Shown one piece after another: positions 6,355-13,408 of a stretch of DNA of 37,940 bases. Source of the DNA: Oceanispirochaeta sp. (lineage in GTDB: Bacteria; Spirochaetota; Spirochaetia; DSM-2461). The notes below the pieces were generated by a model. The model ran no database searches. It was not told where the DNA came from and saw only the letters and a list, made by a program, of their open reading frames with translations. Within the stretch, counting starts at the first letter, position 1; the number at the start of each line of letters is the position of its first letter. A program made the position numbers and the translations under genes. The stretch covers positions 1 to 37,940 of the forward strand of contig NZ_JAQIBL010000107.1 in assembly GCF_027859075.1 (NCBI RefSeq). The letters run 5' to 3'.

Positions 6355-8376
6355 ATGGCGATAATCCGGAAGAATCTGGACGATCCTCAGGTCGGTTCAA
6401 TTGAATCCGACCCTACTGAGGGTCAGAAAGAACTGGATCTGAGAAGTGGTGCAGCGCAAGAGACGGATTCAAAAGAGTCGGTCGGTGAAGTAAAAGAAAA
6501 AACAATAACAGTTAAAAAGGCTGCCGTCAAAAAAAGAACGATTGTCAAAAAGAAAGAGCCTATTGTGGAACCGGCTGCTGAATCCCCTGAATCTGTACAG
6601 GAATCCGAAGAGGTAGCAACCCCTCCCGCAAAAAAAGTCCGGCGTAAAAAAAGCATAAAAGAAACAGTAGGCTCCGTTGTGGCCGGTACAACGAATGACT
6701 CCGGTTCTGTAACAGGGACCGTCACTGTCACTAGTGATATGGGTGAAACAGTTGAAGCAAAGCCTGAATCGACAGAAACTGTCCCGGCCGATGGGGCTGG
6801 TTCAGAGCCTGTACATAAAGCAGGTAAACAGGAAAATCACAGCTCCAGGGCAGATTCCTCTCGATCAGACGCATCCAGATCAGACGCATCCAGATCAGAC
6901 GCATCTCGATCAGACTCATCTCGATCAGATTCCTCTCGATCAGATTCCTCTCGATCAGACTCATCTCGATCAGACTCCTCTCGATCAGACTCATCAACTC
7001 AACGAAACAACTCATTTAATAAAAGAAAAAGCGGAAAAAATAGACGGGATCAGAATTCTAACCGGGATTTAAACCGACAGGCGCGAAACCATCCGCTTCC
7101 CACTCCTGATCAACCCCGGATCACCATCAATGATTTGTCTATCATGACCATGCCGGACCTCAGGGCTTATGCTGAGGATCTGAATTTAGGCCGTGAGGAC
7201 ATGATCAGTCTTAAAAAGCAGGAAATCATTTTTTCAATTCTTAAGGCTCATATTGAGAATAATGGTGTTATTTTTGCTTATGGTTCTCTGGAAATATTAC
7301 CCGACGGTTATGGATTTCTCCGTTCCCCACAGAACTCATATCTTCCCGGAAGTGATGATATTTATATCTCTCCTTCCCAGATAAGACTGTTTAATCTGAA
7401 AACCGGGGATACCGTATACGGCCAGATCCGTTCACCCAAAGAGGGAGAACGCTTTTTTGCCATGCTCCGTGTGGTTCATGTCAACTTTGATGAACCAAGT
7501 GTGGCTCAAACCAGAGTCTCCTTTGAGAATCTGACTCCCCTTTATCCGACACAGCGATTGAATATGGAAACAAATATTGCTGATCCATCTACCAGAATGA
7601 TCAACTTGTTCTGTCCTATCGGGATGGGTCAACGAGGGCTTATCGTTTCTCCTCCCCGTTCGGGAAAAACTGTTATTTTACAGAAAATAGCCAATGCCAT
7701 CACTGAAAATCATCCGAGTGTACAACTTATCGTACTTCTGATCGACGAACGTCCTGAAGAAGTGACCGACATGAAGCGCAGTGTTCAGGGTGAAGTCATT
7801 GCTTCAACATTCGATGAACAGGCCAGCAGGCATGTTCAGGTTGCAGAAATGGTTCTAGAGAAAGCCAGGCGTCTTGTAGAGCATAAAAAGGATGTTGTCA
7901 TCCTGCTGGACTCAATTACCCGTCTGGCAAGAGCCTACAATCAGACCGTTCCCACTTCGGGGAAAATCCTTTCCGGTGGTGTGGATTCCAATGCACTTCA
8001 TAGACCAAAAAGGTTCTTTGGAGCCGCCCGTAATATTGAACATGGAGGCAGCCTGACTATTGTTGCCACCGCTCTGATCGAAACCGGGAGCCGCATGGAT
8101 GAAGTTATTTTTGAGGAATTCAAGGGTACTGGTAATATGGAACTGGTTCTGGATAGACGGCTGGCTGATAAGAGAGTCTTTCCGGCGATAAATATTAAAA
8201 AATCCGGGACAAGGAAAGAGGACTTGCTCTTGAGCAGTGAAGAACTGAACAAGATGTGGTTGCTCCGAAAGGTCATGAATCCCATGGATGATATGGAATG
8301 CACTGAAATGATTGTTGACAAAATGAGGAAAACCAAGAATAATGAGGCGTTCCTGAAGTCGATGAATTCGGCATAG
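6355..8376 (+). CDS. rho: Transcription termination factor Rho with long N-terminal extension
   Basis: Residues from about 258 to the end are a full Rho: the Rho-N helix ([19 protein letters not shown]), the cold-shock RNA-binding fold (about 310-360), the Walker A motif PPRSGKT (433-439) and a Walker B region [14 protein letters not shown]. Rho is a hexameric RNA translocase that ends transcription. At 673 aa it is about 250 residues longer than E. coli Rho. The extra part has an acidic start, Lys-rich blocks such as [14 protein letters not shown], a tract of SRSD(A/S) repeats (residues 164-213) and a basic stretch; it looks disordered. GGAG (6346-6349) precedes ATG 6355. TTGACA and TATAAT elements lie at 6311-6324 but their spacing fits no single promoter. 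rpmE follows. Confidence 0.95.
6844..6993 (+). repeat. Ten 15-bp in-frame tandem repeats in rho
   Basis: Ten 15-bp units encode the pentapeptide SRADS once, SRSDA three times and SRSDS six times. Units vary at silent positions (TCT CGA versus TCC AGA), and some adjacent units are identical, so slippage is likely. Since units are multiples of three, copy-number change would alter length without a frameshift. Confidence 0.95.
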
Positions 8377-8424
8377 GAAGTTTCAGGTTCTTTGAAACGG
8401 AGAACCGACGGAGGATAAATAGTT

Positions 8425-8634
8425 ATGAAAGAAGGAATTCATCCCAAGTATGTGGATGCTACTGTTAAGTGCGCTTGTGGAAATGTCATTCAAACCCGTT
8501 CTACCCATGGGGATATGGAAGTTGAAATTTGCAGCTCCTGTCACCCCTTTTACACTGGTAAACAGAAATTGGTAGATACTGCAGGTCGTGTTGAAAGATT
8601 CAACAAGAAATACGGAATCAAAAGCAAAGACTGA
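8425..8634 (+). CDS. rpmE: 50S ribosomal protein L31 (zinc-binding type)
   Basis: The 69-aa protein begins [20 protein letters not shown] and carries Cys-16, Cys-18, Cys-36 and Cys-39, the four zinc ligands of C+ type L31. L31 bridges the two ribosomal subunits, and the zinc form is usually replaced by a Cys-free paralogue under zinc starvation; no such paralogue is in this window. GGAGG (8410-8414) lies 10 nt before ATG 8425. The rho-rpmE pairing is common. A strong terminator follows 30 bp after the stop. Confidence 0.97.
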
Positions 8635-8663
8635 AATTACTTCAGTTTAATGACAAAAAATGA

Positions 8664-8689
8664 CCACTCCCTTCAGGGAGTGGTTTTTT
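8664..8689 (+). terminator. Intrinsic terminator after rpmE
   Basis: CCACTCCC (8664-8671) and GGGAGTGG (8676-8683) form a perfect 8-bp stem with a TTCA loop, followed by TTTTTT. Confidence 0.93.
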
Positions 8690-8734
8690 GTTGCCCTTAT
8701 ATAGGGGCTTAATTTTCGGTCCAGGGTTTTTTTA

Positions 8735-8800: not shown

Positions 8801-9955
8801 ATGGAAGATTTGCATACCCTTCATAAGAATATTTACGGAAAAGAACCGGATGTTATCGTTCGGGTTCCTGGAAAGCTTAATCTTATGGGGGAACATACGG
8901 AGTACTTTGAAGGACTCGTCCTTGCCGTGGCCGTAAACAAATTTATTGAAGTATCCATCTCTGAACGGGATGACAATTCACTAAGGGTTTACTCCGTAAC
9001 TTATAATGAAAGAAAAAAGTCCTCCTTATCCGGTCTGAAATACAAAAGAGAGGACCGCTGGGCCAATTATGTTAAGGGTGCCATAGCCGTGATGCTTCAG
9101 CTTGGATGTCCGGTTAAAGGACTGGATATCACCATCAACAGTGAGATCCCGGAGCAGGTAGGGCTGGGTTCCTCATCCTCTTTGACACTGGCTCTGGTAT
9201 CGGCTCTTAAAAAACTCTATGACTTTGAAATTTCTGATATTCAGCTTGTAGAATCTGCCCGCTTATCTGAATTGAAATTCATGCAGAAAGATCCCGGTCT
9301 GGCAGCCTGTGCTGTTTCCTATTTTGCCAAGGAAGATCAGGCCTTACTCATAGATACAAAAACCATGGACATCCTGACCATTAACATGGATTTCAAGCCC
9401 ATCATACTCCTGGTGACAGATTCCAATGTTCCTAATGGAATCGGGTACGGCGAGGCTGATGATCTGAGAAAGGATTTTGATGAATGTAAGAAGCTGTTAA
9501 ACAGCCATGGCCGTCATATCACTCTCAGAGATATGACGATACAGGACATAAGAGTTGAACTGGACCTTCTCCCCGAGCATCTCAGAAGGCGTTCTATCCA
9601 TATAATTGAAGAAAATCTGAGGGTGAGAGAGTTGAAGGCAGCTCTGGAGCACAATGATCTGATCCTGGCGGGAAAGTTGATGTACCGCTCCCATGAGAGT
9701 CTCCGTGATTTGCTCGAAATTTCCTGTCCAGAACTGGACTGGCTTGTGAAAAGGGCCTTTGAAACCAATGGAGTCATGGGCTCCCGCATGGTGGGAAATG
9801 GCTTTGGCGGTTGTACAATCAACCTGATAAATGGTAATAATATTCCATTATACGATGAGCATCTTGAAGAATATGACAGGATATTCGGCTTCAAGGCGGA
9901 TTATTTTATCTGCACTCCCGTATCAGGTCTGAAAGCATTACAGGATAAAGAGTAA
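8801..9955 (+). CDS. GHMP kinase of the galactokinase family, catalytic Asp replaced
   Basis: The 384-aa length and three motifs fit galactokinase: PGKLNLMGEHTEYFEG (residues 23-38), the phosphate loop GLGSSSSL (121-128) and GNGFGGC (332-338). However, the catalytic segment normally reading GIMDQ is GLAAC here (166-170). A gapless alignment from KF(M/V) to ALLID puts Ala-169 where the catalytic Asp belongs. The Arg of the first motif is Lys-25, and the sugar-contacting Asp of GEHTDY is Glu. So ATP binding may survive, but normal galactose phosphorylation is doubtful. It could act on another substrate or as a sensor, as yeast Gal3p does. It lies 6 bp before surE. Confidence 0.8.
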   Translation: MEDLHTLHKNIYGKEPDVIVRVPGKLNLMGEHTEYFEGLVLAVAVNKFIEVSISERDDNSLRVYSVTYNERKKSSLSGLKYKREDRWANYVKGAIAVMLQLGCPVKGLDITINSEIPEQVGLGSSSSLTLALVSALKKLYDFEISDIQLVESARLSELKFMQKDPGLAACAVSYFAKEDQALLIDTKTMDILTINMDFKPIILLVTDSNVPNGIGYGEADDLRKDFDECKKLLNSHGRHITLRDMTIQDIRVELDLLPEHLRRRSIHIIEENLRVRELKAALEHNDLILAGKLMYRSHESLRDLLEISCPELDWLVKRAFETNGVMGSRMVGNGFGGCTINLINGNNIPLYDEHLEEYDRIFGFKADYFICTPVSGLKALQDKE

Positions 9956-9961
9956 AATTTC

Positions 9962-10711
9962 ATGAAAATATTAATCACAAATGATGATGGGATTGAGAGT
10001 CCCGGCATATTAAGCCTCAGGGATGTATTGTCCCGGAAACACGATGTCTGGGTCATGGCTCCCGATGGAGACCGCAGCGGATACTCTCATTCCATTACCC
10101 TCAGGAATCCTGTGAAAATTGAAAAGCTGGGACATCACTTGTATCGCTGTTCGGGGACACCCGTTGACTGTGTTGTCTATGGGCTGGCGGGGTACCTGGA
10201 GGAAGACTTTGATGTCATTCTCTCGGGCATCAATATCGGTCCCAATATGGGGACGGATATACTTTATTCCGGAACGGCTGCGGCTGCCAGGCAGGGGGCT
10301 CTTAAAAATATTCCCTCCATAGCCTTGTCTTTAAATCAGTTTGAACCTCCCTTCGATTTTGACTCTATTTCCGAATTTTTACTCTACCGGCTTGAAAATC
10401 TGGTATCCCTTTGGGAAGACAGTTGTTTTTTGAATATGAACTTTCCCGATAAGATGGTTGAGAATAGTGAAATGAAATGGTGCTGGCCCGCCAAACGGAT
10501 CTACCGGGACGAGATTGTCCAGTTTCAGCCTCCCAGAGAGAAAGGAACATTCTGTTTCCTTAAGGGGTGTCTGATTCAATCTGAAGAGGAGGAAGGATCG
10601 GATGCTCTGGCTGTGCATTCCGGTTTTGTGTCCATCTCAGCGATCTCTCTGTCCCCATCCATCGTACCCCATATCGGGTCGGTTAATGAAAAAGCCGGGT
10701 CAGTCTGCTGA
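9962..10711 (+). CDS. surE: 5'/3'-nucleotidase SurE
   Basis: The N-terminus MKILITNDDGIESPG holds the metal-binding Asp pair (Asp-8, Asp-9). SGYSHSIT, GTPVDCVVYGL and LSGINIGPNMGTDILYSGT follow, as in all SurE proteins. SurE is a metal-dependent nucleotidase that removes phosphate from nucleoside monophosphates and helps stationary-phase survival in E. coli. The 249 aa agree with the family. The gene starts 6 bp after the galactokinase-like gene and its TGA overlaps the ATG of the following TPR gene, so it is in a tightly packed operon. Confidence 0.95.
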   Translation: MKILITNDDGIESPGILSLRDVLSRKHDVWVMAPDGDRSGYSHSITLRNPVKIEKLGHHLYRCSGTPVDCVVYGLAGYLEEDFDVILSGINIGPNMGTDILYSGTAAAARQGALKNIPSIALSLNQFEPPFDFDSISEFLLYRLENLVSLWEDSCFLNMNFPDKMVENSEMKWCWPAKRIYRDEIVQFQPPREKGTFCFLKGCLIQSEEEEGSDALAVHSGFVSISAISLSPSIVPHIGSVNEKAGSVC

Positions 10712-11382
10712 TGACTTTTCGGGAAGACGGTTTGAATTTATACAATAATGGTCTGTACCAGGAAGCTCTTGATGCTCTTTTGTCTGAAGATATTGATCCG
10801 GTAGATGACCCCGAACTGGCTTATTTGATGGGACTTTGTTATACCCGTCTGGAGGAGTTCAGTGCAGCAGTTTTCTATCTGGAAAAAGCCACGGAAAGGG
10901 ACATCTCCCTTATCAGAGTCTTTCAGTGCCGTATGGTACTCAGTTATGTCTATAACATTACCAGAGATTTTAAGAGTGCCGAGAAACAGTTGAAGAAGGT
11001 TCTGGAAGACGGCTTTGAATCCTGCCAGATCTTCACATCTTTGGGTTATGCCCTCTGGAGTCAGAAGAAAGTGGAGGAGAGCATCGATTTTCTTTCCCGC
11101 TCTCTTGAAATGGACCCTGATAATGCAAATACCTTGAATTCCATGGGATATATCATGGCTGATGAGGGGATCAATCCAGAAAAAGCCGTCGAGTACTGCC
11201 ATCTGGCATTGTCTTTCCAGCCGGATAATGGGAATTATCTGGATTCTTTGGCTTGGGCACTTTTCAGGACCGGAAAATTGAAAGAGGCCCGCAACTATGC
11301 GGAAAGAGCCTTGGATGCCGGTGCTGATAAATCAGTTTGCAGGGAGCATCTGAATATGATAGATCAGTATGATAAATTTTAA
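10711..11382 (+). CDS. TPR-repeat protein, 223 aa
   Basis: The protein is built of about five tetratricopeptide units, for example LAYLMGLCYTRLEEFSAAVF, then CQIFTSLGYALWSQKKVEES, PDNANTLNSMGYIMADEG and NGNYLDSLAWALFRTGKLKE. There is no signal peptide or membrane segment, so it is probably a cytoplasmic scaffold. It is joined to surE by a TGATG overlap and overlaps the next gene by 14 nt. A partner among the neighbouring products, such as the secreted NHL/VWA protein, cannot be deduced. The specific function is unknown. Confidence 0.85.
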   Translation: MTFREDGLNLYNNGLYQEALDALLSEDIDPVDDPELAYLMGLCYTRLEEFSAAVFYLEKATERDISLIRVFQCRMVLSYVYNITRDFKSAEKQLKKVLEDGFESCQIFTSLGYALWSQKKVEESIDFLSRSLEMDPDNANTLNSMGYIMADEGINPEKAVEYCHLALSFQPDNGNYLDSLAWALFRTGKLKEARNYAERALDAGADKSVCREHLNMIDQYDKF

Positions 11383-13408
11383 GAAGGCTTTGCCCCTTAT
11401 TTTTCTTTTTCTCTCTTCCCTCTTACCGGCTCAACAGAACCGGGTTTCTGATTCAGTGGCAATCAGGGCGGCGGAAGAGTTGCGCTGGGGAGTCATCTCC
11501 TTTCATCAGGGTCTCTTTAATAAGGCCATCCTATCCCTCGAAAAATCACTGGCATTGGATGCGGGTAATGATTTGACACGTTTCTGGCTGGGACGGAGTT
11601 ATTATCAATCCGGATTTGAAGAAGCCGCCCTTAACGAATGGGAAAATCTTATCTCCGGAGGGAAGGCCGGATCAACCTTGCTCAGTTTTGTTGAAATCAT
11701 AACCGACCGGAGGGGGTTGGCCAGAGAGCTGAAGTCCAGCGGCCAACTCGTAGAACTGTTTGAAATTCCAAGGGAACAGGCAGGCATCAACTACTACGAC
11801 CGACCTGTCTCTGTTGCGGCTTCGCCTCAGAGGGACGGAAGCTTTTATCTTCTTTCTTACCTGAATGGCAATCTCATCAGAATCACAACCACCGGACGGA
11901 TACACCATGTTCTGGCCGGGGGGCTGCTGGGCTTCGACAGACCCTGGGACATTGCCTTTCTTCCTGAAAACAAATTGATTATATCCGAATACGGTGCGGA
12001 TCAGCTCTCGGTCTGCAATCCCGAGGGTTTTAGAATCCAGACTATCGGTTCCAAAGGGACGGCACCTGGAGAACTTTTAGGACCACAGTATATGGCTGTT
12101 TCCGAGGATGGATATATCTATGTATCTGAATGGGGCAACAGGAGAATCAGCAAATTTAATCTAGAGGGTGAGTTCATCCTGAGTTTTGGTGAACGCCGTA
12201 CGGACTATTCCGGTTTAAGTGGTCCCAGCGGGATTGCCCTGCGTAACAATAGTGTTTATGTTGCTGATTCCAAGAACGGAAGGATTGAAGTCTTTGATAA
12301 AAGCGGAAACTATCTCAAGCCTCTGATCAGAGATGGTCTGAAGTCTCCCGAAGGGCTGTTGTTTACTTCTGACAGTTCCCTGCTTATTGCCGATGCCGGA
12401 CGGATCATGGTTTATAATCTGGAGAATGATGTCCTTTCTGTCTCTTCTGACCTGGGAGGCAAGGGGAAGAGAATCCTCAGTATCTGCCAGGATGAGAATG
12501 GTAATATAATCTCCGCCGATTTTGATAATAATTCTGTTTCGGTCATGACTGATGTCTCTACTCTCTATGCCGGTCTGTTCCTTAGAATCAACCGGATTGT
12601 TACGGATGAATACCCCCAGGTTCATGTGGATTTTACGGTGGAAGACCGTTGGGGGAAACCCGTTGTCGGACTGGATAAATTGAATTTTTTTATCAGAGAA
12701 AAAGATCGGAATGTAGAAAATTTTGAGATAAGCTATACGGGTTACAATAATCGTGACCTGAGTCTGGCTGTGGTGGTTGATAAAAGCAGCCGTCTTCAAA
12801 GCAGCGATGAGATCATGAGAGACGGTGTTCGGGAGTTGTTCCGCCACTTGAATCCCGGTGATGATCGCTATCTGATCGGGGCCATGGATGCACCCCAGCT
12901 GCTTGCCGAGCCCGGAGATAATACTTTGGATGCTCTGGTGCGCATGATGGATGGATGGAGCCCTACTAGTGATGTGGCTTCCGGATTGAGGCTAGGTGCT
13001 TCCTACCTGCTGCCCGGTCGAAAGAGGAAGGCCATGGTTTTCCTGACAGACGGGAATATTCATAGGGATACTTTTATCCAGTATGGACTGCAGGATATGG
13101 CGCAATACATGAAGAATAACGGTATTTCCTTCTTTCCTGTCTACCTGGATGCGGAGCTGCGGAATGAAGAACTGGACTATATCGCCCGGGAAACCGGCGG
13201 AACAAGTCAGTATCTCTTTCAGCCCAGGGGTATCCTTCCTTTACTGGAGCAGGTCCGGAGTGATGTGAACGGTTTTTATACGTTGACATATGATTCTCTG
13301 GCCTATTCTGATTTTGGAAGAGCCTATATCCCTCTATCGCTGGAAGTCAATTTTGTGAAAAAGAGCGGCAGAGATGAGATGGGTTTTTATGCTCCTCTGG
13401 AATATTGA
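11369..13408 (+). CDS. Secreted TPR / NHL-propeller / von Willebrand A protein
   Basis: A signal peptide (MINFKKALPLIFLFLSSLLP, cleavage near AQQ) is followed by a short TPR-like part (residues about 25-95). Several NHL beta-propeller repeats come next (about 155-390, for example GPQYMAVSEDGYIYVSEWGN). The C-terminal VWA-like domain has LAVVVDKSSRL at its metal site and FLTDGN further on. The canonical site DxSxS reads DKSSR here, so metal-dependent ligand binding may be weakened. The protein is probably periplasmic or on the outer face, acting as a binding platform. Start ATG 11369 overlaps the TPR gene and lacks a clear ribosome-binding site, which suggests coupled translation. No close namesake is recognised. 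Confidence 0.82.
   Translation: MINFKKALPLIFLFLSSLLPAQQNRVSDSVAIRAAEELRWGVISFHQGLFNKAILSLEKSLALDAGNDLTRFWLGRSYYQSGFEEAALNEWENLISGGKAGSTLLSFVEIITDRRGLARELKSSGQLVELFEIPREQAGINYYDRPVSVAASPQRDGSFYLLSYLNGNLIRITTTGRIHHVLAGGLLGFDRPWDIAFLPENKLIISEYGADQLSVCNPEGFRIQTIGSKGTAPGELLGPQYMAVSEDGYIYVSEWGNRRISKFNLEGEFILSFGERRTDYSGLSGPSGIALRNNSVYVADSKNGRIEVFDKSGNYLKPLIRDGLKSPEGLLFTSDSSLLIADAGRIMVYNLENDVLSVSSDLGGKGKRILSICQDENGNIISADFDNNSVSVMTDVSTLYAGLFLRINRIVTDEYPQVHVDFTVEDRWGKPVVGLDKLNFFIREKDRNVENFEISYTGYNNRDLSLAVVVDKSSRLQSSDEIMRDGVRELFRHLNPGDDRYLIGAMDAPQLLAEPGDNTLDALVRMMDGWSPTSDVASGLRLGASYLLPGRKRKAMVFLTDGNIHRDTFIQYGLQDMAQYMKNNGISFFPVYLDAELRNEELDYIARETGGTSQYLFQPRGILPLLEQVRSDVNGFYTLTYDSLAYSDFGRAYIPLSLEVNFVKKSGRDEMGFYAPLEY

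Follow-up and report, generated by a model that had tools for sequence, protein, structure and literature searches.

Within the 37,940-nucleotide stretch of Oceanispirochaeta sp. DNA that was analyzed as a whole (the window), a galactokinase-like gene lies between the rho region and surE (Table 1). This gene, called here the galK-like gene, is followed by surE, a TPR gene and an NHL gene, spaced by 6 nt or overlapping, and the four stand behind a terminator-like hairpin (8662-8685). The match of the NHL-repeat protein to the VWA domain is weak; the protein is encoded near the galK-like gene in much of the class and may be related to TP0421. The latter is a predicted outer-membrane protein (PMC5015957). 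At the other end of the locus, Rho carries about ten RSD(S/A) units of low complexity, N-terminal to its Rho_N domain, which appear to form a four-residue tandem repeat.

Table 1. Features of the galK-like locus and of its product (residue numbers are those of the product; positions are those of the window)
Feature	Position	Strand	Basis
rho, upstream flank of the conserved locus	6355..8376	+	
rpmE-like (ribosomal protein L31) ORF, 69 aa	8425..8634	+	Translation of 8377-8640
Intrinsic-terminator-like hairpin and T-run, between rho-rpmE and the galK-like gene	8662..8692	+	
galK-like gene (galactokinase-like, without the catalytic Asp; product P0001)	8801..9955	+	ORF and translation, 384 aa
Motif 1, residues 20-37, VRVPGKLNLMGEHTEYFE; K25 (hGALK1 R37) and E34 (D46) changed, E31 and H32 kept	8858..8911	+	Alignment to orthodox galactokinases
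Family signature part 1: E70 R71 K72, E84 D85 R86 W87 ... K92	9008..9076	+	90-100% conserved
ATP-binding loop PEQVGLGSSSSL, residues 117-128	9149..9184	+	G121, L122 and S125 invariant in 18/18 of the window's clade
GLAAC in place of GIMDQ, residues 166-170; A169 at the catalytic Asp position	9296..9310	+	Translation and alignment
Family signature part 2: helix 310-321, P310, W314, K317, R318, E321	9728..9763	+	Conservation and model
Motif 3, MVGNGFGGC, residues 330-338, present	9788..9814	+	Alignment; conservation in the window's clade
Family signature part 3: Y358, I361, F362, G363, F364, end of helix 345-362	9872..9892	+	Conservation and model
surE, 5'/3'-nucleotidase; DDGIESPG and SGIN motifs intact	9962..10711	+	PF01975 and TIGR00087 over cut-off
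TPR-repeat protein; overlaps surE stop	10711..11382	+	Adjacency conserved
NHL-repeat protein, possible VWA domain, signal-peptide-like N terminus; overlaps TPR gene	11369..13408	+	Adjacency conserved

At an E-value of 0.001 or better, 57 of 61 related genomes contain relatives of the galK-like product, a tally that takes in ordinary galactokinases; at 1e-35, relatives are present in 175 of 248 genomes of the Spirochaetia. Profile scores within the phylum were at least 414 bits for proteins of the class, against at most 298 for galactokinases of other classes; a profile search of four genomes of one family (f20) gave no family member. One homologue from the same phylum but another class (L244, in genome G333) reads GELIDYSDG and TSLSDHV where galactokinases have GEHTDYNxG and CGIMDQF, with the loop NTSLASSSS, and is possibly an independent case of active-site change.

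The original prediction had described the position directly before surE as unusual. The position is real, with a gap of 6 nt (surE starts at 9962), but it reflects no special link: the order galK-like-surE-TPR-NHL/VWA, often with rho upstream, recurs across the class Spirochaetia, and the linkage to surE is therefore the ancestral gene order of the class. Among the 117 loci with at least 1.5 kb of downstream sequence, surE comes next in 96, and a TPR or NHL gene is present in 105. In 20 of the 117 loci surE is absent and the galK-like gene still precedes TPR or NHL, which rules out SurE as an obligate partner. A single locus (L101) has none of the three genes. Upstream, rho was found in 46 of the 128 loci with at least 1 kb of flank, a count that is a lower bound as many flanks are short.

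By domain content and fold, the product is a member of the GHMP/galactokinase family: PF10509, PF00288 and PF08544 (galactokinase signature, GHMP N and GHMP C domains) all score over the Pfam cut-offs, and its model matches human GALK1 (hGALK1) with a Z of 49. It exceeds the cut-off of the NCBIfam galactokinase equivalog TIGR00131 (241.4 bits against 226.65) and falls below that of the stricter equivalog NF003705 (251.7 against 385), which three early-branching relatives pass with 400 to 433 bits. The models for mevalonate kinase (97 bits, cut-off 163) and thrB (25 bits, cut-off 168) were both missed.

An alignment of 114 sequences equates A169 with D186 of hGALK1, K25 with R37, E34 with D46 and A219 with Y236, although the loop that holds the last of these columns is variable (pLDDT about 71) and the alignment there is less certain. 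The product thus has neither the catalytic Asp nor the Arg of an active galactokinase; of its galactose ligands, E43 and H44 (hGALK1 numbering) are kept, D46 is Glu and the Y236 column is Ala, and in total two of the six galactose/catalytic residues remain. The replacement of GIMDQ by GLAAC, the change of the first-motif Arg to Lys and that of the Asp of GEHTDY to Glu had all been read correctly from the sequence at the outset, as had the register from KF (159-160) to ALLID (181-185), which runs without a gap against hGALK1 and rules out an alignment artefact. A sequencing error is ruled out as well, since the change is common to related genomes. The two ATP-binding motifs, first described as intact, are both present but not letter-perfect: GLGSSSS stands for GLSSSA(A/S), and GNGFGGC for GGGFGGC. 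As to GLAAC itself, it is specific to the genus and does not extend to the whole family. Within the genus, the four other genomes closest to that of the window have it unchanged (proteins 83-92% identical), and the sixth and most distant one reads GITAC (69% identical). Across the GTDB family, the position of the Asp holds Ser in 14 and Ala in 4 of 18 distinct sequences, genus g4 excepted, in which the segment reads GLDDA.

Structure prediction, which had been proposed as a check, gave a full galactokinase fold. The AlphaFold model of P0001, for which 83 family members were aligned, has a mean pLDDT of 93.5, and its best solved matches are the human and Lactococcus galactokinases (Z about 49 over 368-380 residues; for hGALK1, 49.4 over 368 residues). 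The most eroded member that was modelled, L182, has lost the ATP loop, motif 3 and the Asp; its model is as confident (pLDDT 94.0) and still matches human galactokinase with a Z of 42.3, so that the predicted fold appears to be held across the whole family.

Mevalonate kinase showed no significant activity once the equivalent Asp was replaced by Ala or Asn (PMC1851959). Among the 18 sequences of the window's clade, the residues of the ATP loop and of motif 3 are invariant or nearly so, K25 is found in 16 and E34 in all 18, and E31 is conserved as well. This degree of conservation in the ATP motifs, K25 and E34 is too high for a protein without a ligand. Some GHMP kinases, such as homoserine kinase, work without an Asp base, and the absence of the Asp therefore does not prove that phosphotransfer is absent. 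It is conceivable, as the original prediction also suggested for the substrate, that the protein is an active GHMP kinase that acts on something other than galactose, in which K25 and transition-state stabilisation do the work, as proposed for homoserine kinase. The near-invariance just described and the restriction of position 169 to Ser and Ala speak for such an enzyme, as does Lys at the place of K25, which is of the mevalonate-kinase type (Lys18 in the Leishmania enzyme; PMC1851959). On the other hand, active-site residues of the crown, the larger part of the family defined below, vary from genus to genus with no new set having settled, the ATP loop is gone from several lineages in which the rest persists, and conservation falls on residues outside the active site. 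We consider this main rival unlikely overall; it is most plausible for the window's clade and least so for lineages without the ATP loop.

The genome of the window also encodes a second galactokinase. On contig C53, galT is followed by a gene for a 425-aa galactokinase with an intact GLMDQ (L002, 1381-2658), 24% identical to the galK-like product. This enzyme scores 120 bits with TIGR00131, under the cut-off that the degenerate protein passes; judged by these scores, automatic annotation is inverted. That the galK-like product is over the TIGR00131 cut-off (241 against 226.65 bits) could also be taken to mean that it is a slow galactokinase whose base is supplied by another acidic residue, for which E151 would be the candidate, being the acidic residue whose conservation is most confined to the window's clade. 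However, the conservation check that pointed to E151 gave no sign that it reaches the site, R37, D46, D186 and probably Y236 have all changed, the NF003705 cut-off is missed by a wide span (251.7 against 385), and an intact galT-linked galK is at hand in the same genome. A slow galactokinase is accordingly very improbable. Elsewhere, galT (TIGR00209) was found in only 22 of the 70 genomes examined, so that the galK-like gene also persists in genomes that lack this galT. The treponeme-like genome G099, a single contig of 1,139,633 bases, is such a case: a genome search found no second galactokinase and no galT, and its only galactokinase-like gene is the family member L174 (C1:446942-448093), whose ATP loop is damaged (GLGTPNA) and whose residue at the position of Asp46 is Trp.

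Trees were computed from alignments stripped of the main catalytic columns. With 114 rows, a quick tree supported the family and its crown (82 rows) with 99 each; in a careful tree of 50 rows (LG+C20, 1000 bootstraps) both had 100/100, and the members with an intact active site branch first. About 12 changes are needed on the tree for Asp186, 9 for Arg37 and 12 for Asp46, counts that are approximate as the deep branches within the crown are poorly resolved; the active site has been lost repeatedly. The Arg is missing from 56 of the 57 sequences without the Asp and from 46 others in which the Asp is kept, an asymmetry that points to loss of the Arg before that of the Asp. A strict switch from Arg to Lys tied to the loss of the Asp was rejected: it looked near-perfect in the window's family, but class-wide Val, Ser, Thr or Ile can also stand in for the Arg. 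For a paired test of this coupling, there were not enough independent pairs.

Repeated loss of catalytic residues is also what a decaying pseudogene would display, but decay is hardly credible here, and is refuted by selection and by conservation of the locus across the class. For P0001 and its nearest relative (92% identical), pairwise dN/dS is 0.04. With a single exception, the pairs measured fall at 0.02-0.09, those with degenerate members among them; two early-branching members form the outlying pair, at 0.18-0.20. These values are rough, as many dS exceed 1, but no pair comes near neutrality: dN/dS is far below 1, and the family is under purifying selection. Reading frames are open nearly throughout. 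One member, L124 (G102 C258), has an in-frame TAG inside its open frame.

Our main finding concerns what has been conserved instead. Compared with 27 orthodox galactokinases, the family has lost conservation at Arg37, Asn39, Asp46, Tyr47, Ser140, the whole of GIMDQ and Tyr236/Arg239. It has gained it at His8, Pro16, Ser54, Glu70-Arg71-Lys72, Glu84-Asp85-Arg86 and Lys92 in the N-terminal part, and at Pro310, Trp314, Lys317, Arg318, Glu321, Ile361, Phe362 and Phe364 in the C-terminal part. The residues of the first signature part are 90-100% conserved in 87 non-redundant family members and, with the exception of W87, rare or uncommon in the orthodox set. When a signature of 16 residues is scored, all five early-branching rows have 16, the 82 crown rows have 13 to 16, and the 27 orthodox galactokinases have 0 to 5. 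The catalytic residues behave in the opposite way: nine early-branching members keep five or six of the six galactose/catalytic residues, the missing one being a Glu43 to Asp change, and no crown member keeps all six (82 non-redundant, 153 distinct sequences). As the early-branching members carry both sets of residues at once, the order read from the tree is that the signature was acquired first and catalysis lost later. One member, L159, carries a long Ser/Thr/Asn-rich insertion (GEIAPTGSSTIAPTGSS...) within the sugar-binding motif (motif 1 region).

The ATP loop is eroded in several crown lineages that keep the rest, and in the most eroded members, L182, L185 and L186, both it and motif 3 have disappeared, with most of the signature retained. 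These three fit a pure scaffold that binds neither ATP nor sugar, for which only the fold and the signature surface would matter. The conservation of the ATP motifs in the window's clade makes this less likely for the window protein, and we regard it as improbable.

The pattern of the signature is solid; from it we infer a biochemical role and a partner. The galK-like product probably does a job other than making galactose-1-phosphate, and there is good support for the initial proposal that the catalytic Asp has been lost and a role other than that of a galactokinase taken on. The reading that we favor, with reasonable though limited confidence, is that of a pseudo-galactokinase: a galactokinase with a second, non-catalytic role that has turned into a regulatory or scaffold pseudoenzyme, as in yeast Gal1/Gal3. 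Its extension to the whole class, namely that Spirochaetia had a bifunctional galactokinase whose regulatory or scaffold role outlived catalysis independently in many lineages, a class-wide parallel to the yeast Gal1/Gal3 split with an ancient partner, seems to us about evenly balanced. The ancestor of the Spirochaetia would have had, at this locus, a catalytically competent galactokinase that had already acquired its second function, presumably carried by the residues that other galactokinases lack, whose conservation is observed and whose function is deduced. In most descendants, including the genome of the window, phosphorylation of galactose by this protein would have become dispensable, either because another galK took over or because the Leloir pathway was absent. 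R37, D46, D186 and their neighbors would then have drifted, with the fold and the signature held under strong purifying selection by the second function. The crown proteins would thus no longer phosphorylate galactose, and the signature residues would contact a partner. Conservation of the ATP motifs, E31 and E34 in the window's clade makes it probable that ATP and a sugar-like ligand are still bound there but not turned over; ligand-driven closing of the two lobes would control contact with the partner via a putative signature surface, as galactose and ATP do in the Gal3p-Gal80p pair.

Galactokinase-derived pseudoenzymes are already known; what surprises here is that decay recurs throughout the class beneath a second signature that stays constant. 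The family offers a natural experiment in which two constraints on one enzyme fold are separated, since catalytic residues come and go and the non-catalytic set stays. It makes the second function testable, through the partner of the signature residues, and provides a bacterial case of what is known mainly from yeast. There is also a consequence for annotation: the product passes the NCBI galactokinase model, and databases would still call it galactokinase. As the degenerate protein passes this model and the galT-linked GLMDQ enzyme of the same genome does not, galactose use in spirochaetes is likely misread, apparently including that of the 1.14-Mb genome G099. A search of the open-licence literature, with subscription journals outside its coverage, found no paper on a spirochaete galactokinase at this locus or on this family.

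Among known systems, galactokinase itself (GALK/GalK, EC 2.7.1.6; TIGR00131, hGALK1) has the same full fold, the three Pfam domains, E43 and H44, and the ATP motifs, and the early-branching members of the family have its whole active site; the window protein differs by the loss of Asp186, Arg37, Asp46 and probably Tyr236, and by its 16 family-specific, near-invariant residues. The galT-linked enzyme of the same genome is likewise a GHMP galactokinase, and differs by its intact GLMDQ, its adjacency to galT and its 24% identity. Homoserine and phosphomevalonate kinases have the GHMP fold in common with the galK-like product, which is closest to galactokinase in sequence and fold and has much weaker scores to these enzymes. 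The closest parallel in evolution is in yeast. In Kluyveromyces lactis, the enzymatic and regulatory functions of the moonlighting Gal1p are separable, and in Saccharomyces cerevisiae the enzymatic activity of Gal3p has been lost (PMC7556753). As with these proteins, the galK-like family descends from a galactokinase, as its tree indicates, or from a bifunctional ancestor, and a non-catalytic role appears to outlive catalysis; Gal3p is among the fold matches of the P0001 model (Z 35), the retained fold being that of the model and the catalytic loss being deduced from the residues. Bacteria are not known to have a Gal80. Gal3p is the product of a duplication in yeast, with its lesion in the ATP motif and the Asp kept. 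The comparison with Gal3p made in the original prediction thus seems to hold for the evolutionary pattern, in which catalysis is lost and a second role persists, but not for the lesion: in the galK-like family the loss occurred in place, was repeated across a bacterial class, and hit the Arg and the Asp.
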